This document shows, piece after piece, positions 6,011 through 62,532 of a stretch of 64,000 bases of DNA. Source of the DNA: Candidatus Eisenbacteria bacterium (lineage in GTDB: Bacteria > Eisenbacteria > RBG-16-71-46 > CAIMUX01 > JAHJDP01); the NCBI GenBank assembly GCA_018831195.1, contig JAHJDP010000037.1, positions 1-64,000 on the forward strand, given 5' to 3'. Each line of letters begins with the position of its first letter. Position 1 is the stretch's first letter. The notes below the pieces were generated by a model. The model was not told the origin of the DNA. It did not search any database and saw only the letters and a program-made list of their open reading frames with translations. The position numbers and the translations under genes were made by a program.

Positions 6011-6014
6011 TGCG

Positions 6015-6032
6015 GTCTAACGAACGTTAGGG
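6015..6032 (+). other. Collapsed attC-like palindrome
   Basis: GTCTAAC (6015-6021, fits RYYYAAC) and GTTAGGG (6026-6032, near GTTRRRY) are separated by only four bases, giving the palindrome CTAACGAACGTTAG (6018-6031). It looks like an attC whose variable arms were deleted, leaving only the two outer cores. That would fuse the TIR gene and the following small gene into one cassette. Confidence 0.4.
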
Positions 6033-6050
6033 TGCACCAATAAAGGAACA

Positions 6051-6248
6051 GTGAAACATGATAACTATGAAAACAAGAATCTCTATCTTGCAATCGGGCA
6101 AATGTCGTTGGCAATAAGCATTCTCCTAAATCGCTTTGTAGGTGATAGTAATCCTGTTTCATTTATCGTCGGTCTACTGACCGGATTATCAATAGTATTC
6201 AACATTGCATTTATGATGCTTTATCGAAAAGACAAATCAGACAAATGA
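6051..6248 (+). CDS. Small two-helix membrane protein (cassette gene)
   Basis: A 65-residue product starting at GTG 6051, preceded by AAAGGAAC. Two hydrophobic stretches (LYLAIGQMSLAISILL, residues about 12-27, and FIVGLLTGLSIVFNIAFMML, about 38-57) are separated by a short turn, and both ends are charged (MKHDNYENK and YRKDKSDK). This predicts a hairpin inner-membrane protein with both ends in the cytoplasm. The family is not recognised. It lies 41 bp after the TIR gene and before a clear attC, and it is AT-rich like the TIR gene. It could be a free-standing membrane protein or the membrane partner of the TIR effector. Confidence 0.65.
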   Translation: MKHDNYENKNLYLAIGQMSLAISILLNRFVGDSNPVSFIVGLLTGLSIVFNIAFMMLYRKDKSDK

Positions 6249-6272
6249 CATTGTCTCTGAGGATCTTTGTGC

Positions 6273-6333
6273 GCCCTAACAATTGCATGACCCAGATTTG
6301 GCTTTCACCAAGCAGGTTATGCACCCGTTGGGC
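6273..6333 (+). other. attC recombination site (clear)
   Basis: The left end GCCCTAAC (6273-6280) and right end GTTGGGC (6327-6333) are about 61 bp end to end. Arms: TGCATGACC (6284-6292) and ATTTGG (6296-6301) pair with CCAAGC (6308-6313) and GGTTATGCA (6315-6323), around a CTTTCA loop. The CCTAACAATT start is typical of attC sites. It is the last recognisable site; chromosomal genes begin soon after. Confidence 0.8.
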
Positions 6334-6655
6334 ACGCACGTGCAGCATGAAGCGGTGGAGCAAGTGTTTCGGCCAGTCGAGGAGAAACCCTCGGGCGAAT
6401 GCGGAGCACGGTCCGACTTCTGGAAGGAGCGCACGGAGAGGCAGGCATGAGCAGCTTGTCCGGAAACTGCCGTCTTGTGAAGGAGTCCGCCCGATTGCTC
6501 CTCCGAATCACAACCATCAAGGAGGTGTCGTGTGAGAACTGCAATCGTGTGCTTTGCACTCATCGGCTCGCTGCTGGTCAGTTCGTCTGCGGGTGCCGAC
6601 CCCATCAGCCTCATATAGATGATAGCACTACTCCTAAGTACGGCAGCCGCGGTCT
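6334..6655. other. Junction between cassette array and chromosome
   Basis: There is no intact gene. A 36-codon frame (6340-6450, starting GTG) has coding-like residues (EQVFRPVEEKPSGECG) but no recognisable family. A broken secreted-protein start follows at 6532. The region reads as gene remnants left where the array meets the - strand DUF697 gene. Confidence 0.4.
6532..6618 (+). pseudogene. 5' fragment of a secreted-protein gene (signal peptide only)
   Basis: AAGGAGGTG (6519-6527) precedes GTG 6532, which encodes a textbook signal peptide (RTAIVCFALIGSLLVSSSAGA) and then stops at TAG 6616 after only 28 residues. A strong ribosome-binding site and signal peptide with no mature protein point to a gene truncated by recombination at about 6612-6650. 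The 40-bp repeat copy B begins just downstream. Confidence 0.5.
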
Positions 6656-6692
6656 TTAATCCACCGGTCCATCCGAATGCGGCCCCGGAACC
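6653..6692. repeat. Direct repeat copy B (about 40 bp)
   Basis: Second copy of the sequence at 3919-3958, in the same orientation. It contains the last codons and stop of the DUF697 gene on the - strand. Both copies abut a truncated gene on their left. Confidence 0.7.
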
Positions 6693-7885
6693 CGCTCCGT
6701 CTCAGGTTCAAAGACCTCTTCTATATGTTCCCAGAAACGAATCATCTGCTTCACGGCAAAGACAGGCGGTTCGGAAACCTTCTTCGCCGCGGTGCCGGCC
6801 GCTTTGCCGGCCAGCTTGGCGATGCCGGCGAGGAGATGACCGCCCACGCCTACCGCCCCCACCACCCCCATCGCCGCCTTCTGCGGAAATCTTACCGCCC
6901 CGCCGACAACGAGGCGACGTGTTGCGGCGGCCACACGGCTCGCTCCCTCGGCCACCACACCGCCGAGAAGACCGGCCGCTTCGAGCGAGGCGCTGCGTGT
7001 TAAAGCGCGGCGGTCCGCATCAATGCGGATTCCACAATAGCGGCGCGCGAGAACACCAATCCGCAAGGTGAGCAGCGCGTTCGCCGAGCCGTCGAGCAAC
7101 GAGTTCACAAGCAGAGAGATCAGGGGATCCATTCCGTTGACGGGGATCAGTCCCGAGAGACCGGCCGAAACGGGCGCCCCAAGGACGGCGAGGACTTCGC
7201 TGTCCTGGATCTCCCCCGCGATAAAGGCCGCCGTTCCCACATTAAGATAGAGCGCCCACAGCTCACGGGGGTGGGGCCGCTGATAATAAACCTCAGCGAT
7301 CTCCTTCACCATACGCAGTTGCGCCGAGAGCACGATCGCCGTATCGAGGCGGCCGCTTTGTGAAACGGCTGTCGCGGCGAAGACGGCGGCGGCATGCCGG
7401 CGGATGATCTTCTCCGTACGCCGGTCAAGAAACGTTAAAGTGTTATTGATCTCATCTTCCAGTTGCGACACCCGCATGACGGATGAAACAGCCTCGGCGC
7501 CCGATCCGGCACCCTGCCGCTTCTTCTCACCGCGGGTCGCATTGAAGGTCGCCTCCAGCGCGGCCAATCCCTCATACTCATTCCGCACCGCGCCGTTCTT
7601 GAGAATCCGCCCGGCATACCGCTGTAGAAATTTCTCCCATTTTCTGCCCGATGTCTTTTCGGGGCGCACCAATGAGGCCGGCAGCATGAGAAGTTTCGCG
7701 ACAGGATAAACAATAAGAAGTCCCACTCCCACCAGGAGAAGCAGGATGACAAACCAGCCCAGAATCGGGTGCACCGCGGCCGCTTCCCGATAAAGCATCA
7801 GGGCCGAACCGAGCAGGCCGATCAGGGCCAGGATCGTGAAGCCGATCCCGACGGGAATCAGAATTTTTCGGAGAGTTTGCATCAT
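6656..7885 (-). CDS. DUF697 (YcjF-like) inner-membrane protein
   Basis: A 409-residue product. Two hydrophobic helices lie near the N-terminus (ILIPVGIGFTILALIGLLG and HPILGWFVILLLLVGVG), with a large cytoplasmic part after them. Residues about 190-330 carry the DUF697 pattern (FAATAVSQSGRLDTAIVLSA, MVKEIAEVYYQRP). DUF697 proteins are linked to membrane GTPase partners, but none is next to it here. I chose ATG 7885; the frame extends to a TTG at 7954, but that would overlap the small HEPN-like gene just upstream and has no ribosome-binding site. Its 3' end forms repeat copy B. Function unknown. Confidence 0.75.
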   Translation of the reverse strand: MMQTLRKILIPVGIGFTILALIGLLGSALMLYREAAAVHPILGWFVILLLLVGVGLLIVYPVAKLLMLPASLVRPEKTSGRKWEKFLQRYAGRILKNGAVRNEYEGLAALEATFNATRGEKKRQGAGSGAEAVSSVMRVSQLEDEINNTLTFLDRRTEKIIRRHAAAVFAATAVSQSGRLDTAIVLSAQLRMVKEIAEVYYQRPHPRELWALYLNVGTAAFIAGEIQDSEVLAVLGAPVSAGLSGLIPVNGMDPLISLLVNSLLDGSANALLTLRIGVLARRYCGIRIDADRRALTRSASLEAAGLLGGVVAEGASRVAAATRRLVVGGAVRFPQKAAMGVVGAVGVGGHLLAGIAKLAGKAAGTAAKKVSEPPVFAVKQMIRFWEHIEEVFEPETERVPGPHSDGPVD

Positions 7886-7895
7886 GATTCTCAGT

Positions 7896-8021
7896 CTACT
7901 CGCTATCCGAGGCTTCTGCTGGAGGAGGCGGAACCAAGCACTCCAACTTATCAATTAAATCGTTGATGTGCGAAGTGGCAACTTCCCAAAGATGGGCCGG
8001 ATCACGTCTATTAAGCGGCAT
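7896..8021 (-). pseudogene. Truncated HEPN-domain toxin remnant (partner of MntA)
   Basis: A 41-codon frame whose ATG (8021) overlaps the end of the nucleotidyltransferase gene by 11 bp, the usual geometry of MntA/HepT toxin-antitoxin pairs. The start RRDPAHLWEVATSHINDLID resembles the first helix of HEPN proteins (typically DxxYLxxILEA). The frame then runs out in a proline-rich tail (LVPPPPAEASDSE). A full HEPN protein has 110-140 residues with an R-x4-6-H active site, which is missing here, so the toxin is probably dead. Too short for certainty. Confidence 0.45.
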
Positions 8022-8316
8022 AAATGACTTTCCTGGTCCGAAGAATCTCAGATCTCCTAAAGGGATTTCGCAGGCTTCTTTTTTCTATGAGATCAACTTC
8101 TCGACCCAAAATCGTCTGAAGTTCATCACGCATATCAATAAGATCGAATAAGGACCATTTGGCATGATCCTCAAAAGCAACAAGCACATCAACATCACTG
8201 CTCGAGTTGAAATCATCCCGCAAAACTGAGCCAAAGAGAGCCAACTCCGTGATCCTCCATTTTCGAGCGAAGTCACGGATACGCTCATCACCAAAGTCAA
8301 TTCGAGTCTTCTTCAT
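8011..8316 (-). CDS. MntA-type minimal nucleotidyltransferase (antitoxin)
   Basis: A 101-residue minimal nucleotidyltransferase. The signature GSVLRDDFNSSSDVDVLVAFE (first half near residues 28-41, DVD at about 41-43) supplies the metal-binding aspartates; a third acidic residue is in EVDLIEK. In type VII toxin-antitoxin pairs, MntA adds AMP to the HEPN toxin and silences it. Here the overlapping downstream partner is only a 41-codon remnant, so MntA seems to have outlived its toxin. A palindrome 28 bp upstream (8344-8379) may be its control site. Confidence 0.85.
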   Translation of the reverse strand: MKKTRIDFGDERIRDFARKWRITELALFGSVLRDDFNSSSDVDVLVAFEDHAKWSLFDLIDMRDELQTILGREVDLIEKRSLRNPFRRSEILRTRKVIYAA

Positions 8317-20087: not shown

Positions 20088-20849
20088 ATGGAAAAGAATC
20101 CTATGATCGACATTCTCATGAACCGCAAGTCGGTGCGCTCATTCAAGGAAGAGGCGCCGTCGCAGGAGGTGATTGAAACGATCTTCCGGGCGGGACAGCA
20201 GGCGCCCTTCGCCATGCAATTGTGCAGCGCTATCTTGGAGCGAGGCGAGGGTATCCCCTGGGGCGCCCCACTGAATTTTATCATATGCGCCGATGCGCAT
20301 CGGATGCGCTTGATCGCAAAGAAACGCGGCAGACGGCTCCTCATGAATGATCTCACGATGCTGCTCTTTGCCCTGCAGGATGCGGCCTATATGGCTCAGA
20401 ATATGGTGATCGCCGGCGAGGCCCTGGGCTTGGGCAGCTGCTATATCGGCTCCGCACCCATGATCGCCGGCAAAATCGTCGAACAATACAAACTTCCGCC
20501 CAAGGTCTTTCCAATGGTCATGCTTGTCATGGGATATCCGGCGGAAAACAAACCGGTTCGTCCGAGATACCCCCTCTCCTTTTCACTCTTTGAGAATGAA
20601 TATCCCTCATTCACGGATGAACAGGTAACGGAAGCCATGCGAGTCATGGATGAGGGCTACCTTGCACAAGACTACTATAAAGAGGGCCGTCTTATGATCA
20701 AGATGGAGGAGGGCAAAGAGGAGACTTCCACTTTCGACGACTATTCCTGGACGGAACATATCTCGCGGAAGTTTCAATGGTTTCCCCTGCAAAGCGAGAT
20801 CCTTGAAAGTCTGAAGGCCTGTGGATTCAAACTAGGAAGCGACTTATGA
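20088..20849 (+). CDS. Nitroreductase-family flavoprotein
   Basis: A 253-residue FMN-dependent oxidoreductase. The family start (IDILMNRKSVRSFKEEAPS) contains the Arg pair that contacts FMN phosphate. The central YMAQNMVIAGEALGLGSCYIGSAP and the FPMVMLVMGYPAE segment are standard. A roughly 60-residue C-terminal extension (from about 190) is longer than in simple nitroreductases. The start is ATG 20088, preceded by TTGGAGG; the frame is open 22 codons further without support. Its last codons overlap the start of the tricorn-like protease (ATGA at 20846-20849), so the two are translationally coupled. The substrate is unknown; a role in reduction of a quinone, nitro or enone compound is only family knowledge. 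Confidence 0.88.
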   Translation: MEKNPMIDILMNRKSVRSFKEEAPSQEVIETIFRAGQQAPFAMQLCSAILERGEGIPWGAPLNFIICADAHRMRLIAKKRGRRLLMNDLTMLLFALQDAAYMAQNMVIAGEALGLGSCYIGSAPMIAGKIVEQYKLPPKVFPMVMLVMGYPAENKPVRPRYPLSFSLFENEYPSFTDEQVTEAMRVMDEGYLAQDYYKEGRLMIKMEEGKEETSTFDDYSWTEHISRKFQWFPLQSEILESLKACGFKLGSDL

Positions 20850-23800
20850 AACGTTATTCCGTTTTCGCCATGGCGCTGCTCCTGCTCCTCGCCGTATTCA
20901 CTCCGGCTGCCGCAATCAAGCCGGTTCTCCCCCGGCACCCCTCACTCAATCCGGACGGCAGCCTGATGGCCTTCGATTGGAGAGGCGATATCTGGATCGT
21001 CCCCGCGGAGGGAGGCGCGGCCCTCCGCGTGACCGCTCATGTCGCTCATGATGCCTATCCCTATTGGTCCCCCGACGGCAAGGAAATCGCCTTCTCAAGC
21101 GACCGCTACGGAAATACCGACATCTTTGTTGTCGGGACCCAAGGGGGATCGCCGGAGCGACTGACCTTCCACAGTGACGAGGATCAGATTTACGGCTGGA
21201 GTCCGGATGGGGGCACCGTCTATTTCGGCAGCCGCAGGGAGTCGCGGCAGAATCTCATCTACGCTGTTTCACGAACCGGTGGCAGGCCGCTTAGAATCAC
21301 GGGTGATCTTGCCTTCAACTCATCCGTGAGTCCCGATGGCCGCTGGCTCGCCTATGTCCGTGGTTATACAAATTGGTGGCGGAAACACTACCGGGGTTCA
21401 GCGAATCGGGATATCTGGATCCGTCCCATGGGCGGCGGCGAAAGCTTTCAGATCACTTCCTGGGATGGGGATGACGATCAACCGAAGTGGGCCGCCGGCG
21501 GCCGGACCCTTTATTTTCAGAGCGAGCGGGAAGACGGCGTGATGAATTTATATCGTCTGGATCTGGCCGTAGACGGGGAAAATATATCGCCGTCCGGAGA
21601 GCCGGTCCAGATCACCCACATCACCGAAGATGGGATTCAGTATCTTAATCTCAGTCAAGACGGCCACTGGGCCGTCTTTGAATGCAACGGCGGATTGTAC
21701 AGAGTCTCTACGGCCGGCGGGGAACCCCTGGAGGTCCCCATCGATTGCCCCGGGGATCTGAAGGAAAACCCGGTGGAACGCCGGATCCTCACTTCCGGAG
21801 CTTCTGAATTCGCCTTTGCTCCGGGTGAGAAACAAATTGCCTTTGTCGCCGAGGGGGAAATCTATGCGGCTCTAATAAATGAAAATGAGCTGCGGGAGCC
21901 GATCCGGCTGACAGAGACCGACGCCAGGGAGAAGGATCTCGCTTGGCTGGATGAAAACACCCTCATCTTCACCAGCGATCGTTTCGGCGATGATGATCTG
22001 TTCTTATTGCGCAGCACCGATAAAGAGGAAAAGCGGCTGGGAAAGAGCCGGTATCGCGAAGAAATCCGTCTGACGGATTCACCGGAAACAGAGCGGGCGC
22101 CTCAGGTCAGCCCCGACTCGAAAACGATACTCTACCGCCGCGGCACGGGGTTTCTTTGGACCATGGACGGCGAGGGAAGGCATCAGAAGCTTCTGGTCGA
22201 CGAGCCGCAGGTGCTTCACAGCAGCTGGTCCCCTGATTCGCGTTATGTAGCCTATAGTTATACAACGCTCGGCCACGCTGAGGATATCAATATCGTCAGC
22301 CTTGAAACTTTGGAAACACATAATGTATCAAACCATCCCAATGATGATTTTCATCCCCTTTGGACGGGCGATGGGAAACGTCTGAGCTGGGCCAGCCGGA
22401 CCGATGATGGTTTCTATAGTATCCGCTATCTGTGGCTGACGACGGAAGAAGCCGACAAGAGCAGCGCCGAAAGGGAGCGCGAGGAAGAGCAAGAGGAGTC
22501 CCTAAAGAAGGATCGCAAGGATGGCGGCGCATCCGATGACGATGAAGACAAGAACAAAGAAAAAGACAAAAAGATTCCTGAAGTGAAAATCGACTGGAGT
22601 GATTTTCCGGATCGCATCCGAACGGTTACAACGGTCCGCGGTTATTATTGGGATTACGATCAAAGCCCCGATGGCAAACATTACGCCCTCAAGACGGATG
22701 CCGTGGAAGGGATGGAGCTATGGACGGTTGATTGGGATGGAGACAATCTGCGCCGGCTGACGCATAACAGATCCGATCCGGACAAAATGACATGGAATGA
22801 AGCAAGCGACAAAGTACGCTATTTGAGCCGCGGGCAAATTAGAGAGATCGAGAATAAAGAAGGGGCGGAGGAATCAACTTATACATTTTCTGTGGATCTC
22901 ACCGTCGATGCGCGCGCACGGCGCCTCCAGAAGTTCAGTGAGGCCTGGCGGCTGCTGAACGACGGCTTCTATGATCCCAATTTCCACGGCGTTGTTTGGC
23001 CGGCGATGAGGGAAAAGTATCTCCCACTCGCCGCTGAAGCCTTGATGCGCGAGGATTTCAATGATGTCGTTCGTGAAATGATCGGGGAGTTGAACGCCAG
23101 CCACCTCGGCATCTACGGTCCCCGCGACAGCGGCGGTGATGAGACCGGGCTGCTCGGCTTTACACCTGATGACAGCTATGACGGCCCCGGTATCAAGGTC
23201 GCGGCCGTCCTGAAGCGGGGTCCCCTTGATCGCGAGGGCCGGCGGGTTCATCCGGAAGACATCATCTTATCAATCAATGGCCGGGAGATCGAACCCGGCC
23301 AGAATTATTATCCCCTCCTGAATCATATGGCCGGCAAGGAAGTCGATTTGGCCATCTCACCCATGGGAAAGGGCGGGAAGAAGAAAACGATGACTGTCGA
23401 ACCCCTCGATGCCGGCCGGTATTGGACACTCAGCTATAGTCAGTGGATGGATTCCAACCGTCAGATGGTTGATCAGCTCTCGGAGGGAAAAATCGGTTAC
23501 CTCCACATGAGTGCTATGGGGGATGATAATTGGGACCGATTCCTGGAGGACATTTTCAGCCGGGCGCTGGGAAAAGAGGGGCTGATCCTCGATGTTCGGT
23601 TTAACAATGGCGGCAGCATCCATGATCGTGTTCTGACCTTCCTCAGCCGCCGCGCCTACTGCTATTCAAAAGGCCGCGGAGATCGCAACATCACCTATGA
23701 TGCGCTCCAGCGTTGGGAAAAACCGATCGTCCTTCTCACGAACGAGCGCAGCTACAGCGACGGCGAGATCTTTCCCTGGGGATTTAAGGCCTTGGGGCTG

Positions 23801-24043
23801 GGGTTGGTCGTCGGAATGCCGACGTTCGGCGCGGTGATCGGCACCAATGATGTCCGGCTCATTGATGGAACGGGATTCCGGGTTCCCGGCACCGGGTGGT
23901 ACCGGATGAACGGGGAGAGCCTCGAAAACAACGCCGTTCAGCCCGATATCCGGGTGCCGGATGTGCCGGAGGAAAATCTCCAAAACCGGGATGCCCAGCT
24001 GGAAAGGGGCGTCCAGGAATGCCTGAGAATGATTCAGTTTTAA
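20846..24043 (+). CDS. Tricorn-like serine protease (S41) with beta-propeller and PDZ
   Basis: A 1065-residue protease. The N-terminus has a signal peptide (VFAMALLLLLAVFTPAAA), so it is exported rather than cytoplasmic like archaeal tricorn. Residues about 30-550 form TolB/WD-like propeller blades (HPSLNPDGSLMAFDWRGDIW; YPYWSPDGKEIAFSSDRYG). A charged low-complexity linker (KSSAEREREEEQEESLKKDR) lies near 535-575. Then come a C1 helical part, a PDZ domain (about 770-860) and the S41 catalytic core with LILDVRFNNGGSIHD and NERSYSDGEIFPWG, where Ser971 is the likely nucleophile. It should trim peptides into small products. It overlaps the nitroreductase by 4 bp and is followed after 16 bp by malonyl-CoA decarboxylase. 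Confidence 0.92.
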   Translation: MKRYSVFAMALLLLLAVFTPAAAIKPVLPRHPSLNPDGSLMAFDWRGDIWIVPAEGGAALRVTAHVAHDAYPYWSPDGKEIAFSSDRYGNTDIFVVGTQGGSPERLTFHSDEDQIYGWSPDGGTVYFGSRRESRQNLIYAVSRTGGRPLRITGDLAFNSSVSPDGRWLAYVRGYTNWWRKHYRGSANRDIWIRPMGGGESFQITSWDGDDDQPKWAAGGRTLYFQSEREDGVMNLYRLDLAVDGENISPSGEPVQITHITEDGIQYLNLSQDGHWAVFECNGGLYRVSTAGGEPLEVPIDCPGDLKENPVERRILTSGASEFAFAPGEKQIAFVAEGEIYAALINENELREPIRLTETDAREKDLAWLDENTLIFTSDRFGDDDLFLLRSTDKEEKRLGKSRYREEIRLTDSPETERAPQVSPDSKTILYRRGTGFLWTMDGEGRHQKLLVDEPQVLHSSWSPDSRYVAYSYTTLGHAEDINIVSLETLETHNVSNHPNDDFHPLWTGDGKRLSWASRTDDGFYSIRYLWLTTEEADKSSAEREREEEQEESLKKDRKDGGASDDDEDKNKEKDKKIPEVKIDWSDFPDRIRTVTTVRGYYWDYDQSPDGKHYALKTDAVEGMELWTVDWDGDNLRRLTHNRSDPDKMTWNEASDKVRYLSRGQIREIENKEGAEESTYTFSVDLTVDARARRLQKFSEAWRLLNDGFYDPNFHGVVWPAMREKYLPLAAEALMREDFNDVVREMIGELNASHLGIYGPRDSGGDETGLLGFTPDDSYDGPGIKVAAVLKRGPLDREGRRVHPEDIILSINGREIEPGQNYYPLLNHMAGKEVDLAISPMGKGGKKKTMTVEPLDAGRYWTLSYSQWMDSNRQMVDQLSEGKIGYLHMSAMGDDNWDRFLEDIFSRALGKEGLILDVRFNNGGSIHDRVLTFLSRRAYCYSKGRGDRNITYDALQRWEKPIVLLTNERSYSDGEIFPWGFKALGLGLVVGMPTFGAVIGTNDVRLIDGTGFRVPGTGWYRMNGESLENNAVQPDIRVPDVPEENLQNRDAQLERGVQECLRMIQF

Positions 24044-44886: not shown

Positions 44887-46263
44887 TCAATCAGCTTCGG
44901 ACCGCAATGACTCATCCTGTCGGCCATCGTTATAATGCCCGATGAGTTTGATGGGATCTCCAGCCTCATCAAGGACAACTTCGATACGGAAATAATCAGC
45001 CTCTTCAAAGCGAAAGAGTCGATCCCCCATCGGAATGGCGGCCAACTTGGACCGTCCCTCCCTTTGGTAATATAGCTGTCCCTCTTCGACCGTCAATCGC
45101 CGGGGGCCATAAACGCCGCTATACGATTCGAGAACCGAGACATCGATGGCCACCGGATGTAGTTGTGATTCAAGCCTGACCAGATTCCAATCGGCCAGAA
45201 AAATGGCATCCTCATCCGTTTCATGTTCCTTTATCTTTTGCAGCGCCAGCATATACGCATAGTCCAGCGCTTCCTTCTCCGGCACCACAAGATCCGGGGC
45301 GACTCCTGTACCCTCCCAATTCGTGCCGCTGATCGGGTTAATCGCCCGGCCATAAGGCACTCTGAGCATGACATTCAGTTCGGGGTAAAGCGCCGGCGCC
45401 ACCGGATGGGCGCCGCCTCCGGTCGTATCACCGACGATTGTGGCCCGTTCCAGATTCTTGAGGTTATAGCTGAACTCCTCGGCTCCTGAAAATGTATATC
45501 CGCTTGTCAGGACATAGAGATCGGTGTCGGGCATGCGAGGCCCTTCAACATAAGCAGCCGTCCAAAATTGTTTGGTCGTGCCGCTCTGCCGGATATAGAA
45601 ACTGTTCAGGTGTACCGGCTCTTCAAAGAAATAACCGGTGATGAGCTGGATCAAACTTGGATCACCGCCCCCGTTGTTGCGTAGATCTATGATCAGGGCC
45701 TTGCAGTGAGCCAGAAAATTCATGGCGGCGATAGCCGTCGGACCGGCGTATTCCGCACCAATAAAGCTGTCGAAACGAAGATAGCCGATATTGCCTGGAA
45801 GTATCTCGACCTTCTTAAAGTCGAAGTTTGTCCGGGCAAGTTCCGTCATCCGGCGGGCCTGTGCATCCTCCGGCTCTCGTTCGGCCGTCATCTCCGCCAT
45901 TCGTTCGGGATCGATATACCGGACGCCCAGATGAAGATCATGGCTGATCGATTGCAGATCCTCGGTGAGGATCCTGGCAAACTCGGCCACCGTCACCAGG
46001 TCATCATAGTCGCCATTCTTCAACCGGTCGCGCAGATGCCGCTCCATTTTCTCAGCGACATCGAGAAAGATATAGGTCTTATTGAGGTCGGCGCTGATGG
46101 AGTCAATGATCGCCGCGCGCTTGGCCGCATCGGCCGGCACATCTTCCGGCATCCGGCCCGCCTGAGCCCATCCCTTCGAGAGAGTCGCCAGGATGAGGGC
46201 CAGGATGAGGAAGCCGAGGTAACGGGATCCAGGACAACTTCTACCCATCTTCGTGAAGGCCAT
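44887..46263 (-). CDS. Exported S41-family (IRBP/C-terminal-processing-like) peptidase
   Basis: A 458-residue protein with a signal peptide (YLGFLILALILATLSKGWAQA). The helical N-terminal domain (about 40-130; IIDSISADLNKTYIFLDVAEKM) is typical of the IRBP-like S41 group. The core has ALIIDLRNNGGGDPSLIQLI and the nucleophile segment LTSGYTFSGAEEFSYNL (Ser in FSGAEE), then VGDTTGGGAHP. There is no PDZ domain. The last about 90 residues form a beta-rich DUF3471-like tail (LESYSGVYGPRRLTVEEGQLYYQ). GGAGG precedes ATG 46263. It should be a periplasmic or surface peptidase. It is a distant relative of the S41 lipoprotein at 59029. Confidence 0.9.
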   Translation of the reverse strand: MAFTKMGRSCPGSRYLGFLILALILATLSKGWAQAGRMPEDVPADAAKRAAIIDSISADLNKTYIFLDVAEKMERHLRDRLKNGDYDDLVTVAEFARILTEDLQSISHDLHLGVRYIDPERMAEMTAEREPEDAQARRMTELARTNFDFKKVEILPGNIGYLRFDSFIGAEYAGPTAIAAMNFLAHCKALIIDLRNNGGGDPSLIQLITGYFFEEPVHLNSFYIRQSGTTKQFWTAAYVEGPRMPDTDLYVLTSGYTFSGAEEFSYNLKNLERATIVGDTTGGGAHPVAPALYPELNVMLRVPYGRAINPISGTNWEGTGVAPDLVVPEKEALDYAYMLALQKIKEHETDEDAIFLADWNLVRLESQLHPVAIDVSVLESYSGVYGPRRLTVEEGQLYYQREGRSKLAAIPMGDRLFRFEEADYFRIEVVLDEAGDPIKLIGHYNDGRQDESLRSEAD

Positions 46264-54691: not shown

Positions 54692-56527
54692 TTATTCAAC
54701 GACGACGAGGCGGCGGCTCCATCGTTCAATCCCATTGTCGATGAGGCAGAAATAGACGCCCGACGCCAGTTTCGGCAACTGGATTTGGTGGCGGCCGGCC
54801 CTGAAGCTTCGGTCAGCCATTGTTTTTTGGAGACGCCCGCGGGCGTCAATGATATCCAGACGCAGGGATTGATCTTTTAGAATTGTAACATCGATAGGCG
54901 ATCGGGCGCGCAGCGGATTGGGGACATGCCATTGAATCGAGTCTGATCGGGAAGAATTTTCCCCCCGAACATCCGCTGGAAGGTCCCAGTGAATCGAAAA
55001 ATCCTCCAGCACGGGGGACAATGCGGGGTCGGTTGTCTGCAGAAGAACCTTGTACTGGAAGTACCGATCCATCATTTCCGTCAGATCCCCCGGGCTACTG
55101 ATGGCGGCCGACCAATCCCCCAAATCTCCCGGATCATCTGAACTTCTTACCTGGAAACTTAGATCGGTGCCGGCCGGTTCCTTGATTGTCCAATCGATAT
55201 CGGCCGCGAGCGGATCGCTGTAGAGATCCAGAACAGAACTCTGCAGCTCACCGGCAGGCTTGAATTCGGTGACCTTCCACCAATTGATTTCTCCGGAAGT
55301 ATGCGCCGATCCAATGATTTCAAGGGATCCATCTCCGTCGACATCCGCCGGGAAGGCCGTCAGAGCCGAGGGGTACGTTTCCGTCAGGATATGTTTGGTC
55401 CATGTAACCGATTCAGTGCCGCTGTTCTGGTACCAATAGATGGCATTCACAAGGGCGCCCACCGCCACGACATCCAGGAAACCATCACCATCGATGTCCG
55501 CGATGTATGTATAATGTCCTCCATAACATTCGACATCTATGCCATTCAGCGTCCAGGTGATCGGATCATCCCCTCCATTTTTCCACCAATGAAGCTGGCC
55601 GTCCCAAGCGGCGGCGACAATATCAAGAAGACCGTCATTATCAATATCGCCGAAAGTGGCGTAACGGCAGCCCGTCATGGTGTTGCTGATAAGCTGCTCG
55701 CTCCAGACAATGGGATCGCCGCCTTCATTGAAGAAGAGCGAGACCTCGTTGTGATTGGCCGCGGTGCCGACAACATCAATGTCCCCGTCATTATCCACAT
55801 CGCCGCCGAACGCCGAGTGGGCTCCACTAAAGCCCGGGCCGATCATGAGACGGGTCCAGACAATCGGATCGCCGCCGTCGTTCCGCCACCATCCGATAAA
55901 CTGGCTTGTCCATGATGTACTGATCACATCCGGATCTTCATCCCCATCCAGATCGGCGACAAAGACGTTGCAGGGAACCCACAGAGAATAATCGATTATG
56001 AATTTCGTCCAAACAATCGGATCCCCGCCATCGTTTCGCCACCAAGCCAACTTGTTGCCCGGGGTCTGCGCCGTACCCACAAGATCAATATCGCCGTCCA
56101 TATCAAAATCAGCGGGATGAACCGCCGTCCCGCCCTCGAAATCATCGTCGATGATCTGCTCAACCCAGGTCACCGGATGTGTGCCCTGATTGATCCAGAG
56201 GATGACTTTCGCAGCGGTGTCTGTTGTTCCAAAAATATCCATATCGCCGTCATGGTCAAAATCAAACGAGTAAATCCCATAGACACAGGTCAAGGGAGGA
56301 CGAACCGGTGTCATCTGAGGTGTTGAAAGCAGTACTGATGAGAGGGCAAGCTGGCCGGGTATGGACCGCCAGGAAATGTCCGACGATGCCGCAAAACCCG
56401 CGCCCCAGCTATGAACAGGACCCGGTTCCACGCCACCGGCGCACCAATCCGTCTGTACGGCATCATTCGCCGTCACACCGGCAGAGAACAAAGATAGGAA
56501 TGCGGCAATGCATACAACCGCGCGCAT
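54692..56527 (-). CDS. Secreted FG-GAP/VCBS-repeat protein with FlgD-like C-terminal module
   Basis: A 611-residue protein starting at ATG 56527 after AAGGAGG. A signal peptide (AVVCIAAFLSLFSAGVTA) precedes about seven FG-GAP/VCBS repeats, each with a calcium-binding D-x-D-x-D-G motif (DFDHDGDMDIFG, DFDMDGDIDLVG, DLDGDEDPDVIS, DVDNDGDIDVVG, DIDNDGLLDIVA, DIDGDGFLDVVA, DVDGDGSLEIIG) alternating with WW(R/K)N-G repeats. This makes an integrin-like seven-bladed propeller. The last about 75 residues are the FlgD-like module (LRLDIIDARGRLQKTM, ASGVYFCLIDNG). It is probably a cell-surface protein for adhesion or ligand binding. Confidence 0.9.
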   Translation of the reverse strand: MRAVVCIAAFLSLFSAGVTANDAVQTDWCAGGVEPGPVHSWGAGFAASSDISWRSIPGQLALSSVLLSTPQMTPVRPPLTCVYGIYSFDFDHDGDMDIFGTTDTAAKVILWINQGTHPVTWVEQIIDDDFEGGTAVHPADFDMDGDIDLVGTAQTPGNKLAWWRNDGGDPIVWTKFIIDYSLWVPCNVFVADLDGDEDPDVISTSWTSQFIGWWRNDGGDPIVWTRLMIGPGFSGAHSAFGGDVDNDGDIDVVGTAANHNEVSLFFNEGGDPIVWSEQLISNTMTGCRYATFGDIDNDGLLDIVAAAWDGQLHWWKNGGDDPITWTLNGIDVECYGGHYTYIADIDGDGFLDVVAVGALVNAIYWYQNSGTESVTWTKHILTETYPSALTAFPADVDGDGSLEIIGSAHTSGEINWWKVTEFKPAGELQSSVLDLYSDPLAADIDWTIKEPAGTDLSFQVRSSDDPGDLGDWSAAISSPGDLTEMMDRYFQYKVLLQTTDPALSPVLEDFSIHWDLPADVRGENSSRSDSIQWHVPNPLRARSPIDVTILKDQSLRLDIIDARGRLQKTMADRSFRAGRHQIQLPKLASGVYFCLIDNGIERWSRRLVVVE

Positions 56528-56683
56528 GAAGACCTCCTTTTGACTGGCTGGCGACACCGGCGCGCTCGACTTGAGACGAGCCGGCCTCGATATTCAACCC
56601 CCTGAGAAAACAGCGCCCGTTTCACCCATTAAAGTCATTCCAGTCTCTCAAGACCTGAACGGAACCTTCAGAAAACCTAAAGA

Positions 56684-56712
56684 GTGACAAAAGATTTCTA
56701 ACATGCTATATG
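56684..56712 (+). promoter_or_regulatory. Putative promoter of the wHTH-propeller operon
   Basis: GTGACA (56684-56689), 17 bp, TATATG (56707-56712): a near-consensus pair. It lies about 140 bp before ATG 56853, in the 325-bp region between divergent genes. Confidence 0.4.
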
Positions 56713-56852
56713 TCAACGAGATGGATTCTCCCTCCGGCCCATACCCGATCAAAAAAATCCAAACTCCATCTCTGGAAATCGGCCGAGGCAGGGAATAGAA
56801 TAGGATCAGATGAATCGCCGGGTTGGGGGGATCGAGGGAGAGCGAGAGCCGA

Positions 56853-59009
56853 ATGGACAATCCGGGTAAACCATTGCCGCATCGCCCCGCGGCTGTCAGC
56901 CCCTTCTACCTTAACGAATACTTCATTCAGCCCTCACTGAACCGGGTGACGATTAAGGAAGAGATCCAACAAATAGAACCCCGCATCATGCATGTCTTGG
57001 TCTGTCTTGCCGACCGCCCCGGTGAAGTTGTCTCACGCGATGCTCTGCTTCAGGCGGTCTGGGGTGATTCTATCGTCGGTGAGGAAGCGATCACCGTCGC
57101 CATTTCGGAATTGCGCCGGATTCTGAAAGACAACACCAAGTCCCCCCATTATATCGAGACGATTCGCAAGGGGGGATACCGTCTGATCACCGAGGTGAGG
57201 CATGCTGAAGCGGATCAGCCGCCGCCCCGAACAGCGGAGGTTAACGCACGCCCGCGAACCGTTCCTCCGGCATTCGATAAAAGAGAGGTCTCCAAATCAA
57301 GACCATGGTTGATCTGGGCGCCGGCGATCATCCTGGCGATCCTCTCCATAGCCATCATTCAGCAGTGGCGCAAAGGGCCTCCGGCTGAACCGGCGATCCT
57401 CAAGGGGAGGCCTTTCACAAGCTATCCAGGAAACGAGATGTATCCGGCGCTGTCGCCCGATGGAAAACAGGTGGCTTTTGTCTGGGCGGGTGAAGATGGA
57501 GATAATTATGATATTTATGTTAAACAACTGGACACGGAGACCCCTTTAAGATTGACCGACAATCCGGCGGATGAATCGTATCCGGCTTGGTCCCCTGACG
57601 GCAATACAATTGCCTTCGTGCGCTATGGAGAGAGAGCAGGAATCTATATAAAACCGGTCCTGGGCGGATCAGAACGCAGGTTGTCTTTTATCGAGAACTC
57701 CGTCGGCGGATTGGATTGGTCGCCCGACGGACGGTGGATCGCCTTTTCGGCGGCGGCGGACCCCAAAGAGCCCTATCTCATCGCCCTTCTTTCCCTCGAG
57801 ACAATGGAGATTAAATATCTAACCTTCATCCAGGAGGAGTTTACCTGCGATTCCTGGCCGGCCTTTTCTCCGGACGGCAAAACAATAGCCTTTATTCGCG
57901 CCGGCTATAGCGCCCAACGGGATATCTTCCTGATTCCCACGGGAGGCGGAACCGAACGGCGGCTGACGCGATTTCAACATAGTATCCAGGGGCTCGATTG
58001 GACATCGGACGGGAGGAGTCTTGTCATCGCGGCGGCTCCATCGGGACACTTTTCATTATGGCGCGTCACCATAGACAATGGAGCCCTCGCCTGGCTGCCG
58101 ACCCACAGCGCTACCGTTGCTAATCCCTCTATCGCCGTGAAAGGCGCAGGACTTGTCTTCGAGGAGCATATATTCGATTGCAATATTTGGCGCGTTCCAA
58201 TGACACATCCGGATGCATGCGGCGTTTCCGGCCCCTTTATCTCATCCACCAGGACCGACTGTCAGGCAAGATATTCTCAAGACGGCGGGCGCATTGCATT
58301 CATCTCTTCTCGTTCAGGAAGCCGGGAAATATGGATATGCGATGCGGATGGAAAACGACCGCGCCAGCTCACGAACTTTAACGGCGCTTTCATTATGGAA
58401 CCCAGATGGTCTCCGGATGGAAACCGTCTGGCCTTCACGGCTATGCCCGAAGGAAACGCCTCGGTTTATATCATGGAGATCGACAGCAGCCTGCCGAAGC
58501 TTCTCACCCACGACAACCATAACGAAACCAGGCCCTTTTGGTCCAGTGATGGAGAGCATCTTTATTTCACGCGAGAGGATGCAGGAAGATGGCAGATCTG
58601 GAAGATGGACCAGGAGGGGAAAAGCCGGGTTCTTGTGACTGATGACGGGATTGAAGCTTTCAAGGAATCGGAGGACGGTCTCTATCTTTATTATTGGCGG
58701 CCTCTGGATTTCTGCATCTGCAGGCTGTCATTAATTGATGGCGAAAGAACCTGTTATACCGATGGAAAGGTTCTTTCAAACTGGAATTGTTACACCCCCA
58801 CTCCAAAAGGGGTCTATTCGATTCAACGAAAACCGGGATACAGTCTTTTGGTCTTCTACGATTATTCTACATGTCAGACCGATTCCATTCTCGCCTTGAA
58901 TGAAAAACGATACATTGACATCGATATCTCCCCAGATGGGCAGTACCTGCTCTATAGTGGAAATGAAAAATATGAGAGAGATCTCATTCTGGTGGAGGAT
59001 TTTCGGTAA
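56853..59009 (+). CDS. CadC/ToxR-like membrane regulator with periplasmic TolB-type propeller
   Basis: A 718-residue one-component regulator. Residues about 20-115 form an OmpR/CadC winged helix (PRIMHVLVCLADRPGEVVSR, EAITVAISELRRILKD, YIETIRKGGYRLI). A proline-rich linker leads to a single transmembrane helix (LIWAPAIILAILSIAIIQQW, about 151-170). The rest, on the periplasmic side, is a chain of PD40/TolB blades (YPALSPDGKQVAFVW, YPAWSPDGNTIAFVR, WPAFSPDGKTIAFIR, EPRWSPDGNRLAFTA). It should sense a periplasmic ligand or protein and act directly on DNA. The start is ATG 56853, with GGGAGAGCGAGAG upstream. An S41 lipoprotein gene begins 19 bp later and is probably co-transcribed, perhaps as a partner or target. 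Confidence 0.88.
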   Translation: MDNPGKPLPHRPAAVSPFYLNEYFIQPSLNRVTIKEEIQQIEPRIMHVLVCLADRPGEVVSRDALLQAVWGDSIVGEEAITVAISELRRILKDNTKSPHYIETIRKGGYRLITEVRHAEADQPPPRTAEVNARPRTVPPAFDKREVSKSRPWLIWAPAIILAILSIAIIQQWRKGPPAEPAILKGRPFTSYPGNEMYPALSPDGKQVAFVWAGEDGDNYDIYVKQLDTETPLRLTDNPADESYPAWSPDGNTIAFVRYGERAGIYIKPVLGGSERRLSFIENSVGGLDWSPDGRWIAFSAAADPKEPYLIALLSLETMEIKYLTFIQEEFTCDSWPAFSPDGKTIAFIRAGYSAQRDIFLIPTGGGTERRLTRFQHSIQGLDWTSDGRSLVIAAAPSGHFSLWRVTIDNGALAWLPTHSATVANPSIAVKGAGLVFEEHIFDCNIWRVPMTHPDACGVSGPFISSTRTDCQARYSQDGGRIAFISSRSGSREIWICDADGKRPRQLTNFNGAFIMEPRWSPDGNRLAFTAMPEGNASVYIMEIDSSLPKLLTHDNHNETRPFWSSDGEHLYFTREDAGRWQIWKMDQEGKSRVLVTDDGIEAFKESEDGLYLYYWRPLDFCICRLSLIDGERTCYTDGKVLSNWNCYTPTPKGVYSIQRKPGYSLLVFYDYSTCQTDSILALNEKRYIDIDISPDGQYLLYSGNEKYERDLILVEDFR

Positions 59010-59028
59010 CTGAGATGGAGGGGAACTC

Positions 59029-60411
59029 ATGATTTTACGAACACCCACCGGGTCTTCCAAGCAGACCGGGATTGCCGGAATTCGCTTCGCGGCTCCGGTG
59101 CTGCTGGTGTTTATGTTTTGCCTCACAATGATTGGCTGTACAACCGGCCCGAAAGGTCCCGGCGCAGATCTCGAAAATTCGCGACCGCTCACCGAAGAAC
59201 AACGGCGGCTCAATATCGAATCCTTCGAATATATATGGCAGACCATTAATGATAAATATTGGGATCCCGAAATGGGGGGGCTGGATTGGCAGTCGATACA
59301 TGATGAGCTTTATCCATCGATCGAGAAGGCCAAGACAATGGAGGAAGCCCGCCAGCCCATGTTTGAATTGGTTTCAAAACTTGGAAAATCCCACTTCCAA
59401 ATCTTTCCTGCCGATCTTTATGAAGATATCAATCCCGATGGAACGGTTGATAAAGGCGACGGCGCCACGGGCATGCACATACGCGTCGTTGACAAACAGG
59501 CATTGGTTGTCTCGGTTGAGCCTTCTTCTCCCGCCGGCCAGCTCGGCATCCGTCCGGGTTGGGAGATTCTCCGTATCGGCGGCATTGAAATCCGGCCAAA
59601 ACTGGAAGAGCTGTTCGAGAAATTCGGAGATAAGACTTTTGATGATTACATCTATAGCGGCGCCATCGATTCGAGACTGCATCGACAGATTGGGGACACC
59701 GTTTCAGTTCAGTTCCTTGACGGGCGGAACAACAAGAAGGATCTCGAGATCGTACTTGCGGAAGCCAAGGGGAAGAGGGCTCAATTCGGCAATCTGCCCG
59801 CGACGCATGTTTGGGTTGAAACAAAGCGGCTCGATGAAAACATCGGCTATATCGCCTTTAATTTTTTCCTGGATCCAATGCTTGTTATGATGAGTGTAAA
59901 TACGGCGATGGATGAATTTCAGGATTGCCGGGGGATCATCATCGATCTGAGAGGAAACCCTGGAGGGATCGGATCGATGGCGATGGGCATTGCCGGGTGG
60001 TTTATCGATGAGAAAGGATATCGTTTGGGCACCATGACAACCCGCGAAGGGGAGATAAAGTTTGTTGTCAGCCCACGGGCCCATACTTTTAACGGGCCTT
60101 TGGCTGTACTCATCGACGGTCTCTCTGCATCAACATCAGAGATTCTCGCGGGAGGGCTCAGGGATCTGGAGCGCGCTCAACTCTTCGGCGAGCAGACCGC
60201 CGGCGCCGCGCTGCCTTCTATGATTGAAAAACTCCCCAACGGTGACGGATTCCAATATGCTATCGCGGACTATGTGTCGAAAAGCGGCGACACTCTCGAA
60301 GGCGCAGGCGTTCTTCCGCATGTTGAAGTCGTCCCAACGCGGGAAAAACTGCTTCAAGGCGGGGATCCGATCCTGGATTCCGCAGTGGACTGGATGCTGG
60401 AAACTCATTAA
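59029..60411 (+). CDS. S41-family peptidase lipoprotein with PDZ domain
   Basis: A 460-residue protein with a lipoprotein signal (LLVFMFCLTMIGC, lipidated Cys37). A helical N-terminal domain (about 55-125) is followed by a PDZ domain (about 150-230; VSVEPSSPAGQLGIRPGWE) and the S41 core: GIIIDLRGNPGGIGSMAMGI and LIDGLSASTSEILAGGL (nucleophile Ser in SASTSE), then LFGEQTAGAALPS. The CtpA general-base lysine normally found in the G-x-x-(T/S)-x-G-K stretch is absent (TAGAA), so catalysis may use another residue, as in tricorn-like enzymes. GGAGGGG precedes ATG 59029. It follows the wHTH-propeller gene by 19 bp. Confidence 0.9.
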   Translation: MILRTPTGSSKQTGIAGIRFAAPVLLVFMFCLTMIGCTTGPKGPGADLENSRPLTEEQRRLNIESFEYIWQTINDKYWDPEMGGLDWQSIHDELYPSIEKAKTMEEARQPMFELVSKLGKSHFQIFPADLYEDINPDGTVDKGDGATGMHIRVVDKQALVVSVEPSSPAGQLGIRPGWEILRIGGIEIRPKLEELFEKFGDKTFDDYIYSGAIDSRLHRQIGDTVSVQFLDGRNNKKDLEIVLAEAKGKRAQFGNLPATHVWVETKRLDENIGYIAFNFFLDPMLVMMSVNTAMDEFQDCRGIIIDLRGNPGGIGSMAMGIAGWFIDEKGYRLGTMTTREGEIKFVVSPRAHTFNGPLAVLIDGLSASTSEILAGGLRDLERAQLFGEQTAGAALPSMIEKLPNGDGFQYAIADYVSKSGDTLEGAGVLPHVEVVPTREKLLQGGDPILDSAVDWMLETH

Positions 60412-60455: not shown

Positions 60456-61256
60456 ATGAGATTCAACTCTCTGTTTTCAAGCCGTGACAATTGTTCTTAT
60501 TCGAAAATTTTGATCATCGTGCTTGTTTCGATAATGGCATTGTCGGTGTTTCCTTCTCTTAATACCAAGGCATCGGAACCCACCGGTGACGAAATTTTAG
60601 AGGCCTTTATAAAGGCTACCGGCGGGAAGGATGCCTATAGCGCGCTGCACAATCAGGTCTCGAGCGGATCGATGGAGATGCCGGCCATGGGCATCAAAGC
60701 CACCATGATAAGTTACTCTGAAGAACCGAACAAGTCGTACAGCAAAATCGAATCCCCGGCCATCGGAACCATCGAATCGGGCACAGATGGATCCGTCTAT
60801 TGGGAAATCACAATGATGTCAGGCCCCAGAATTCTTGAAGGCGAGGAGCGGGCCTCCTCCATGCGGGCCGCCACATTTAACAGCACGCTGCTTTGGAAGC
60901 AGTTATTCAAGACGGCTGAATATGCCGGCGTCGATACGTTGGACGGCAAGCTTTGTAATACGGTCATCTTGACCCCCAATGAGGGCCAGCCTGAAAAACA
61001 TTATTTCGACGCCGAATCCCATCTTCTTGTCAAAATCGAAGCGACAATTAACACGACCATGGGAGCCATCAAGATCGAGAATTTCCCGGGTGACTATCGG
61101 GAAGTCAACGGCGTCCTCATGTCATATACATCCAGACAGGTTCTTATGGGAATGCAGGAAATGATTTTCAAGAGCGACAAAATCGAATTCAATGTTGATA
61201 TCCCTGACAGCATTTTCATTGTGCCGGATGACATTACCGCCCTTATGGAGAAGTGA
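60456..61256 (+). CDS. LolA/LppX-like exported protein
   Basis: A 266-residue exported protein (signal ILIIVLVSIMALSVFPSLNTKA). The mature part has the outer-membrane lipoprotein-sorting-like pattern: EILEAFIKATGGKDAYSALH at the start, then alternating strands (SGSMEMPAMGIKATMISYSE, LCNTVILTPNEGQPEKHYFD, HLLVKIEATI), ending near YREVNGVLMSYTSRQVLMG. Such half-barrels carry lipids or bind hydrophobic ligands. GGAGG precedes ATG 60456, and the gene is 44 bp after the S41 lipoprotein. The same type of protein often sits beside S41 or M16 peptidases in FCB genomes. A strong terminator-like hairpin lies about 50 bp downstream, inside the next coding region. Confidence 0.75.
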   Translation: MRFNSLFSSRDNCSYSKILIIVLVSIMALSVFPSLNTKASEPTGDEILEAFIKATGGKDAYSALHNQVSSGSMEMPAMGIKATMISYSEEPNKSYSKIESPAIGTIESGTDGSVYWEITMMSGPRILEGEERASSMRAATFNSTLLWKQLFKTAEYAGVDTLDGKLCNTVILTPNEGQPEKHYFDAESHLLVKIEATINTTMGAIKIENFPGDYREVNGVLMSYTSRQVLMGMQEMIFKSDKIEFNVDIPDSIFIVPDDITALMEK

Positions 61257-61263
61257 GCCGGGA

Positions 61264-62532
61264 ATGTCCCGAAAACCGCCTTTTCCCCTCAAAGCTCCTT
61301 CATCAACAGGTCTGTTCTTGAAACAGACCTGTTTTTTCTCTGTCATTATTATGCTCGGCCTTGGCTCGCCGATGTTTGCGTCTCATGGTGACGGCGCCAT
61401 TTCTGAAGAGGATCATATGAGGGTGTTAACCTTTCAAGTAAGCGTCCCGCCCGACACCCCCGACACTTCCGGTTTATTCATCGCAGGGGATTTTCAGGGT
61501 TGGAATCCGGCCAGCGAGACTCACAAATTAGACAGGATTGATCGGCGGACCTATCAGATCACGCTGAGCCTGCCGTACGAGCAACACATCCAATTTAAGT
61601 TTACCCGTGGACATTGGGGTGTTGTAGAGAAGGGTTCCCACGGAGAGGAGATAGCCAACAGAACACTGTTCATTACCGAATCCGGCACACACACATTCAC
61701 CGTTGCGGCTTGGGCGGATAATCCACCGGTAAAAAACAGCATCACGGGCAATGTAAGCACGATCACTATTCCAGCTTTTGCGAGAAACCGCCGAATCTGG
61801 GTCTACCTGCCTCCAAACTACGCCACCGAACCTGATAGACGCTATCCGGTTCTATATATGCTGGATGGACAGAACATCTTTGATAATGCCACGAGTTTTG
61901 CCGGCGAATGGGGCGTTGATGAGATTTGTGAACGTTTGATCTTAGCGGGTGAAATCCAGCCGATTATTGTCATCGCCATAGATAACGGAGGAGCTGATCG
62001 CGTGAATGAGTACACTCCCTGGCCCGATTCCAGCCGGCGAGAAGGAGGCGCCGCAGACAAGCATCTGCAAGAAATCATTTCCAATGTTATTCCATATGTC
62101 AATGACCATTACAAAACAATGACAAATCCAGAACAGACAGGGCTCGCAGGTTCGTCGTTGGGCGGTTTGACGGCCGTTTACGCCGGATTCACTTATCCGG
62201 AGACGTTCGGTCTGATTGCCGGACTTTCCCCCTCTATCTGGTGGGATGACAATCATCTTATTCGATATGTTCAATCCAGCAAAAAGCGGCCCTTAAAATT
62301 GTACATGGATATGGGAACACTTGAATCCGGCACAAAGAGAGATACCGACAACAGCGGCATCAGCAACAGCATCAGACAGCTTCGATCCCTGCATGGTGTC
62401 ATGCTGGAGAAGGGCTTCATACCCGGTATCGATCTCAAAAGCTTCGAAGACGAAGGCGCCAACCATCACGAATCATTCTGGGCCGCCCGATTCCCGGCAA
62501 CCCTCCAGTTTCTTTTTCCCCCGACATTATGA
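61264..62532 (+). CDS. Exported esterase (esterase D/Fes family) with glycogen-binding-like domain
   Basis: A 422-residue protein. From ATG 61264 a signal peptide is predicted (CFFSVIIMLGLGSPMFA). Residues about 60-150 form an E-set/CBM48-like domain (SGLFIAGDFQGWNPASE, FKFTRGHWGVVEKG). Residues about 160-420 form the alpha/beta hydrolase of PF00756: IWVYLPPNYATEPDRRYPVL, DNGGADRVNEYTPW, the nucleophile Ser298 in GLAGSSLGGLTAVYAG, and the His near GANHHESFW. It may release acyl groups from saccharides or siderophores. Oddity: a rho-independent terminator-like hairpin (61305-61337) lies within the signal-peptide codons. An alternative start at 61417 with its own GAAGAGG would make a cytoplasmic form. 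Confidence 0.85.
   Translation: MSRKPPFPLKAPSSTGLFLKQTCFFSVIIMLGLGSPMFASHGDGAISEEDHMRVLTFQVSVPPDTPDTSGLFIAGDFQGWNPASETHKLDRIDRRTYQITLSLPYEQHIQFKFTRGHWGVVEKGSHGEEIANRTLFITESGTHTFTVAAWADNPPVKNSITGNVSTITIPAFARNRRIWVYLPPNYATEPDRRYPVLYMLDGQNIFDNATSFAGEWGVDEICERLILAGEIQPIIVIAIDNGGADRVNEYTPWPDSSRREGGAADKHLQEIISNVIPYVNDHYKTMTNPEQTGLAGSSLGGLTAVYAGFTYPETFGLIAGLSPSIWWDDNHLIRYVQSSKKRPLKLYMDMGTLESGTKRDTDNSGISNSIRQLRSLHGVMLEKGFIPGIDLKSFEDEGANHHESFWAARFPATLQFLFPPTL
61305..61337 (+). terminator. Rho-independent terminator inside the esterase 5' coding region
   Basis: AACAGGTCTGTT (61305-61316) and AACAGACCTGTT (61322-61333) form a perfect 12-bp stem with a 5-base loop and a six-T run (61332-61337). It is as good a terminator as any in the window. 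It lies 41 bp into the esterase frame, so it either ends the upstream operon or acts as an attenuator. Confidence 0.8.

Follow-up and report, generated by a model that had tools for sequence, protein, structure and literature searches.

Does a gene for a membrane-bound regulator that lies 19 bp upstream of an S41 peptidase gene, both on the forward strand, form a signalling pair with it? The question is raised by a 64,000-nucleotide stretch (the window) of contig JAHJDP010000037.1 from a Candidatus Eisenbacteria bacterium, in which the regulator, here called REG, combines a winged helix, a membrane helix and TolB-like propeller sequence (Table 1). A reading made from the letters of this DNA (the sequence-only reading) had proposed that the protease cuts the propeller or is sensed by it, in a one-component route from envelope proteolysis to transcription. 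Its two open reading frames and their spacing stand as it gave them. We found that the REG-S41 pair is not conserved, as far as tested, and REG and S41 look like two common modules that came to adjoin. With a probability of about 0.6, REG is a ToxR/CadC-type one-component regulator that controls its divergent neighbour, a gene for an FG-GAP repeat protein, together with its own operon, which has been joined by a common cassette of a protease and a LolA-like protein.

Pfam searches placed a Trans_reg_C domain at residues 41-111 of REG (E=8.5e-19) and PD40 repeats in six stretches (E=1.6e-55), and there was no receiver domain among Pfam families at E≤0.01. The best solved sequence relatives were CadC (5ju7, E=4.4e-18) for the winged helix and TolB (E=6.2e-28) for the propellers. 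The winged helix and single membrane helix proposed earlier were both recovered: hydropathy has one peak, with 19-residue windows beginning at 149-154, and the structure model has a helix at residues 155-173 (predicted local distance difference test, pLDDT, 85.8; predicted template modelling score, pTM, 0.71; alignment of 27 rows, window copy included). We infer a topology with a cytoplasmic winged helix and periplasmic propellers. The source genome (5.24 Mb, 123 contigs) has five Trans_reg_C matches, four of them over the cut-off, REG included.

The sequence-only reading had described a single TolB propeller; the PD40/TolB fold and its predicted periplasmic location held, and the number changed to two in tandem. 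The same part of TolB was matched twice by sequence, at residues 190-345 and 473-597 of REG. In the structure comparison of the REG model, TolB entries took ranks 1-13 (Z 27.2-28.7, root mean square deviation (rmsd) 2.1-2.6, 239-249 residues aligned), most of them covering residues 180-432, and chains with two propellers (LRP6, megalin) covered approximately residues 180-696 at an rmsd of about 18 to 20. Because there are two TolB sequence matches and also two-propeller structure matches, the periplasmic part (about residues 186-718) is predicted to comprise two TolB-type propellers rather than one, a call made from sequence and the whole-chain model, with approximate boundaries. Some structure matches reach residue 718, a hint that the last strand may complete the ring of the first propeller.

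Co-occurrence of REG and S41 had been named beforehand as a check of the proposed link, and it did not bear the link out. The sequence-only reading would count as refuted if the pair were not conserved and if separate promoters drove unrelated expression, and the first of these two holds as far as the searches below go. The phylum set comprised 47 genomes, with 11 in the order of the window, and searches for regulator relatives, here and in the further loci below, scored 18 to 23 candidates per genome. Among the matches listed for the phylum, full-length REG relatives came from G000, G003 and G007, the last with two copies, and S41 relatives, with 1e-55 as the weakest E accepted, came from G000, G007, G009, G001, G002 and G013. 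In these listed matches, the window was the only place where the two lay together. The S41 locus set contained 16 loci, namely 10 of the 13 from a species collection and six from the phylum, with the tricorn-like L086-L088 set aside. No REG match lay beside an S41 relative in any of the 16, of which 15 are assessable (the upstream side of L077 is cut off). Across 10 genomes holding both families, with 77 S41 places at E≤1e-8, one of 30 regulators adjoined an S41 match, and that was the window copy; the 30 include two identical copies from G051. The next-nearest distances were 5.5 kb (G056) and then 17 kb, and the contigs of 18 regulators had no S41 match. At L148, an S41 lies 4.5-5.5 kb from the regulator. 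Of 47 further loci, 29 encoded the winged helix and the propeller within a single frame, and none of these 29 had an S41 (E≤1e-3) nearby, within flanks of up to 1.5 kb that are shorter at contig ends. A looser version of the pair was seen at L155 (region 5236-8089), where a winged-helix open frame without propellers (5236-6549) and a distant S41 (E=1.2e-14) point away from each other.

The gene on the other side of REG recurs once. Its product matched FG-GAP_3 in six stretches (E=2.8e-43) and, below the cut-off, Por_Secre_tail (E=1.9e-4). A homologue is also divergent from a regulator homologue in one other genome, at G007:C10 (L066), where two pieces in different frames show 39% and 37% identity; G007 belongs to another family of the same order. 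A rough reckoning that takes four possible pairings and assumes about 4,500 genes puts the chance of such a repeated layout at about 1 in 1,000. In the regulator phylogeny, the window copy groups with the regulators of G007:C10 and G003 (support values 97/94), leaving the second G007 copy outside. Three of the 30 regulators are absent from this tree of 27 rows, namely L134, whose start was called late, L143, which has the same sequence as L142, and L154, which is divided between two frames.

The combination of winged helix and PD40 propeller part was found at 26 places in seven of the 10 genomes (one split over two frames, two identical), in addition to the 29 further loci. Two clades of Acidobacteriota regulators keep neighbours of their own, each set of regulators being confined to a single branch (100/99 and 100/100). 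In one clade, from four genomes (L142, L143, L145, L147 and L148, the first two identical), the gene directly downstream encodes a protein of 508-510 aa, with SGL and NHL matches over the cut-offs when L142, the only one searched, was compared with Pfam. Divergent from the other clade, in three genomes (L131, L133 and L135; gaps of 317, 346 and 867 nt), is a protein of 137-146 aa, assigned to Lumazine_bd_2 on L135 only (E=4.6e-21). In this survey, seven neighbour sides of the 30 regulators fall off the contig, and genes were called by codon usage, with some starts missed or misplaced (e.g. a spurious 70-aa open reading frame before REG). Because the FG-GAP layout recurs in G007 and two other clades keep their own neighbours, local control by REG is supported.

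Several observations weigh against local control. The pairing of REG with FG-GAP is known from one other genome only, the second regulator of G007 (L067) has a divergent neighbour unrelated to FG-GAP, and the contig edge truncates the 5' end of the G003 regulator copy. No regulator match was found beside the FG-GAP homologues of G001, G002 and G007:C121, and that of G003 is on another contig than the regulator, facing a winged-helix gene of other make-up. Many of the 30 regulators lack a recurring neighbour. The binding site that the sequence-only reading would have sought upstream of REG did not emerge either: for the best 20-mers shared with the upstream regions of L066 and L067, with 15 of 20 matches each, base shuffles did as well in 67 and 80 of 200 cases. 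Lastly, Pfam LolA_like gave no match on the 266-aa protein of the window itself. Nothing stood out among repeats in the intergenic region, and a promoter scan gave six sites, against 6.4 expected, one of them a 9-of-12 promoter-like site at 56773-56801, upstream of REG. The winged-helix gene in G003 (L126:9412-10863) encodes, by reading of its sequence, a winged helix fused to an alpha/beta hydrolase-like part and is convergent with the FG-GAP homologue.

The most fruitful rival to local control, possible but doubtful in our judgement, is that the neighbour of each regulator clade, here the FG-GAP protein, is exported and bound by the double propeller, so that the sensor would consist of regulator plus neighbour, as in ToxR/ToxS and VtrA/VtrC, with a lipocalin-like partner. 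The neighbours are clade-specific; those of both Acidobacteriota clades have N-termini that look exported, and the accessible text of PMC9214523 describes co-component cassettes, VtrA/VtrC and ToxR/ToxS, that carry an adjacent periplasmic partner. However, the same neighbours could equally be regulated targets, their folds differ between clades, export was judged by eye only, and many regulators have no neighbour that recurs.

It is improbable that the arrangement has no functional meaning, with REG regulating distant genes and both neighbours incidental. The fruitless operator search in the intergenic region and the occurrence of the FG-GAP layout in a single other genome would fit such a view, but the divergent layout is repeated in another family of the order and conserved local neighbours occur in two other clades.

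The S41 gene keeps another partner. In 14 of 16 loci the gene directly downstream of S41 is a homologue of the LolA-like gene, the exceptions being L073 and the distant L075, and the pair is present in Acidobacteriota, planctomycete records and the window's own order. The gaps between the two genes range from -7 to 225 nt, with starts set by hand, and measure 44 nt in the window. Nine members of the family, out of 15, gave a Pfam LolA_like match at E≤0.1 (best E=4.1e-10), and the 266-aa protein is called LolA-like through these relatives. S41 and the LolA-like gene are an independent, widespread two-gene cassette. A literature search, weak on subscription journals, found nothing on an S41 peptidase with LolA. 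At L071:5517-7821, two LolA-like genes stand in tandem behind the S41 gene.

In the S41 protein, Pfam detected Peptidase_S41 (E=5.9e-32) and, before the PDZ region, Tricorn_C1 over its cut-off (E=9.1e-12). The description of this enzyme as a PDZ lipoprotease stood as to the peptidase domain and the lipobox-like VFMFCLTMIGC at Cys37; PDZ_2 (E=3.1e-4) is below the Pfam cut-off. The lipobox pattern occurs in two of 16 family rows, the window copy and L069, one row (L077) being without its N-terminus. The CtpA lysine is indeed absent, as had been pointed out, yet this is not unusual: position 393 is A in 12 rows, L in three and S in one, and K in none of the 16. The accessible text of PMC3808539 gives Ser309, Lys334 and Gln338 as the CtpB residues, a spacing that corresponds to positions 368, 393 and 397 of the window protein, which are Ser, Ala and Ser. 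His122, Ser368 and Glu424 are kept in all 16 rows, window included, and their columns align with L087, a tricorn homologue that matches 1k32 at E=4.9e-105. The aligned His, Ser and Glu are what we take to be the catalytic residues of tricorn. Since these three are invariant and aligned with the tricorn homologue, and no family row has the lysine, the enzyme is probably active and its lack of lysine ordinary: judged from the alignment, this is a family trait and does not mark the enzyme as dead or as a sensor. The structure model (16 rows, pLDDT 85.6) matched 4ghn (Z 29), the D1 protease 1fc6 (Z 27), IRBP (Z 23), CPAF 3dor (Z 22) and tricorn 1k32 (Z 16). Counting this one, the window encodes at least three S41 proteins. 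A second, at 20846-24043 (+), is a tricorn protease homologue of 1065 aa that combines propeller repeats with S41 in a single chain (1k32, E=1.8e-51; TolB-like stretch 30-172); a third, at 44887-46263 (-), stands alone and has IRBP/retinol-binding protein 3 as its nearest relative (E=2.1e-128).

REG, S41 and the LolA-like gene are separated by 19 and 44 nt, and no hairpin above chance was found at the REG/S41 junction (59000-59035), so that co-transcription of REG and S41 in the source genome is probable. A hairpin 48 nt past the LolA-like gene may end the operon; if it is a terminator, the three genes form one unit. It sits inside the N-terminal coding part of an esterase open reading frame as called (61192-62532); unless the true start of that gene is further downstream, the hairpin is an attenuator or a chance structure.

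These results leave the protease circuit quite improbable. The S41 enzyme would cut the propeller domain or be bound by it, linking envelope proteolysis to transcription; the short gap with likely co-transcription and the intact tricorn-type residues favour it, as do the looser case at L155 and the precedent of CtpB, a PDZ-gated S41 protease that acts in signalling according to the accessible text of PMC3808539. Nonetheless, the pair occurs in one of 30 regulators and none of the 29 further loci, and S41 keeps its LolA-like partner in most loci. What endures of the proposed one-component route is a membrane regulator with outer propellers, probably co-transcribed with S41; the circuit between protease and propeller found no comparative support. 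The chance is similarly slim that S41 and its LolA-like partner were recruited in this lineage as the signal source of REG, in which case the protease would trim or release the double propeller or its ligand, and envelope proteolysis would then set expression of the FG-GAP and protease genes.

A split tricorn, its propeller taken over by the regulator and its C1-PDZ-S41 part left as a second gene, is scarcely credible and was rejected on sequence: tricorn homologues, including the one in the window, do have propeller repeats and S41 on the same chain, and 1k32 ranks fourth for REG in Foldseek, but REG is nearest TolB and CadC by sequence, with no tricorn chain among 55 matches at E≤1e-3, and REG-type genes occur without S41 as S41 does without REG.

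For REG as a local one-component regulator, we infer the signal, the operator, co-transcription and the direction of regulation. The winged helix would stay cytoplasmic, with one helix spanning the inner membrane, and the periplasmic tandem propellers would sense the envelope, with some other exported protein or a peptide as the probable signal. The signal would probably reach the winged helix through a change in oligomeric state. REG would then act locally through the region 56528-56852 on the FG-GAP gene and on its own operon, which in this lineage also carries the tricorn-type S41 (lipo)protease and LolA-like cassette, so that REG would co-express it.

Table 1. Features of the regulator locus (positions in the window; aa, amino acids; residue numbers refer to the protein named)
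Feature	Position	Strand	Details
FG-GAP repeat protein, divergent from REG	54692..56557	-	621 aa; alternative ATG 56527 before a signal-peptide-like stretch (by eye)
Divergent intergenic region	56528..56852	.	likeliest place for a regulator operator
REG, membrane-bound one-component regulator	56853..59009	+	718 aa; Trans_reg_C and PD40; alternative upstream start TTG 56823
Winged helix DNA-binding domain of REG (Trans_reg_C, residues 41-111)	56973..57185	+	Pfam; CadC 5ju7
Single membrane helix of REG (residues 155-173)	57315..57371	+	hydropathy and model
First predicted TolB-type propeller of REG (about residues 186-434)	57408..58154	+	sequence match to TolB, model, structure comparison
Second predicted TolB-type propeller of REG (about residues 435-718)	58155..59006	+	Pfam, sequence match, model; boundary approximate
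S41 peptidase, lipobox-like signal, tricorn-type residues	59029..60411	+	460 aa; Pfam, alignment, model
Cys37 of S41, putative lipidation site	59137..59139	+	pattern match
His122 of S41, invariant, aligned with His of tricorn homologue	59392..59394	+	alignment
Ser368 of S41, invariant nucleophile position	60130..60132	+	alignment
Ala393 of S41, place of CtpA/CtpB catalytic lysine	60205..60207	+	alignment; CtpB spacing Ser309-Lys334 (accessible text of PMC3808539)
Glu424 of S41, invariant, aligned with Glu of tricorn homologue	60298..60300	+	alignment
LolA-like protein, conserved partner of S41	60456..61256	+	266 aa; homologue just downstream of S41 in 14/16 loci
Hairpin, possible terminator	61305..61333	+	12 pairs then T run; -17.1 kcal/mol, z -4.68, 0/200 shuffles as stable

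The sensor part of REG extends beyond transcription regulators. All 18 matches to the regulator model that lack a winged helix hold PD40 (some are cut by contig ends), and a Pkinase domain takes the place of the winged helix in at least 11 of them, L164 and L185 included. Judged by these domains, the putative double-propeller sensor module is coupled to two outputs or more, transcription regulators and protein kinases. Acidobacteriae are relatively rich in transmembrane regulators according to a count in the accessible text of PMC10269533, in whose main text the terms TolB, propeller and WD40 do not occur, and among the titles listed in our literature search, with the weakness already mentioned, none was on the winged helix and propeller architecture.

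Taken alone, the find is nearly ordinary: a membrane regulator of known type beside a common protease cassette. Its useful yield is the correction to a double propeller and the module shared by Acidobacteriota regulators and protein kinases. The clade-specific neighbour genes provide concrete candidate ligands or targets for the regulator family, and another unit open to testing is the S41/LolA-like pair of Acidobacteriota and planctomycete records.

Among known systems, the S41 protein resembles tricorn, CPAF and IRBP-type peptidases in its Tricorn_C1-PDZ-S41 order and in the aligned His, Ser and Glu, but it is a 460-aa protein without propellers, with a signal sequence and a LolA-like partner. 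With the CtpA/CtpB/Prc peptidases it shares the fold, as the match to 1fc6 indicates, and the SxSxSE stretch, whereas the places of their catalytic Lys and Gln are taken by Ala393 and Ser397. The propeller part of REG superposes on TolB, from which it differs in being membrane-tethered and doubled. Where ToxR/ToxS and VtrA/VtrC have an adjacent periplasmic partner, REG has, in two genomes, a divergent FG-GAP neighbour as a candidate partner. The Pkinase-PD40 proteins of Acidobacteriota have the propeller module of REG with a kinase domain instead of the winged helix. The winged helix and PD40 regulators of the same phylum have the winged helix-propeller order of REG; their neighbours vary by clade, and none of those checked adjoins S41. 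Like the ToxR/CadC family as a whole, REG has an N-terminal Trans_reg_C winged helix, one membrane helix and a C-terminal periplasmic part, which is, unlike the sensor of CadC, a predicted double TolB-type propeller.

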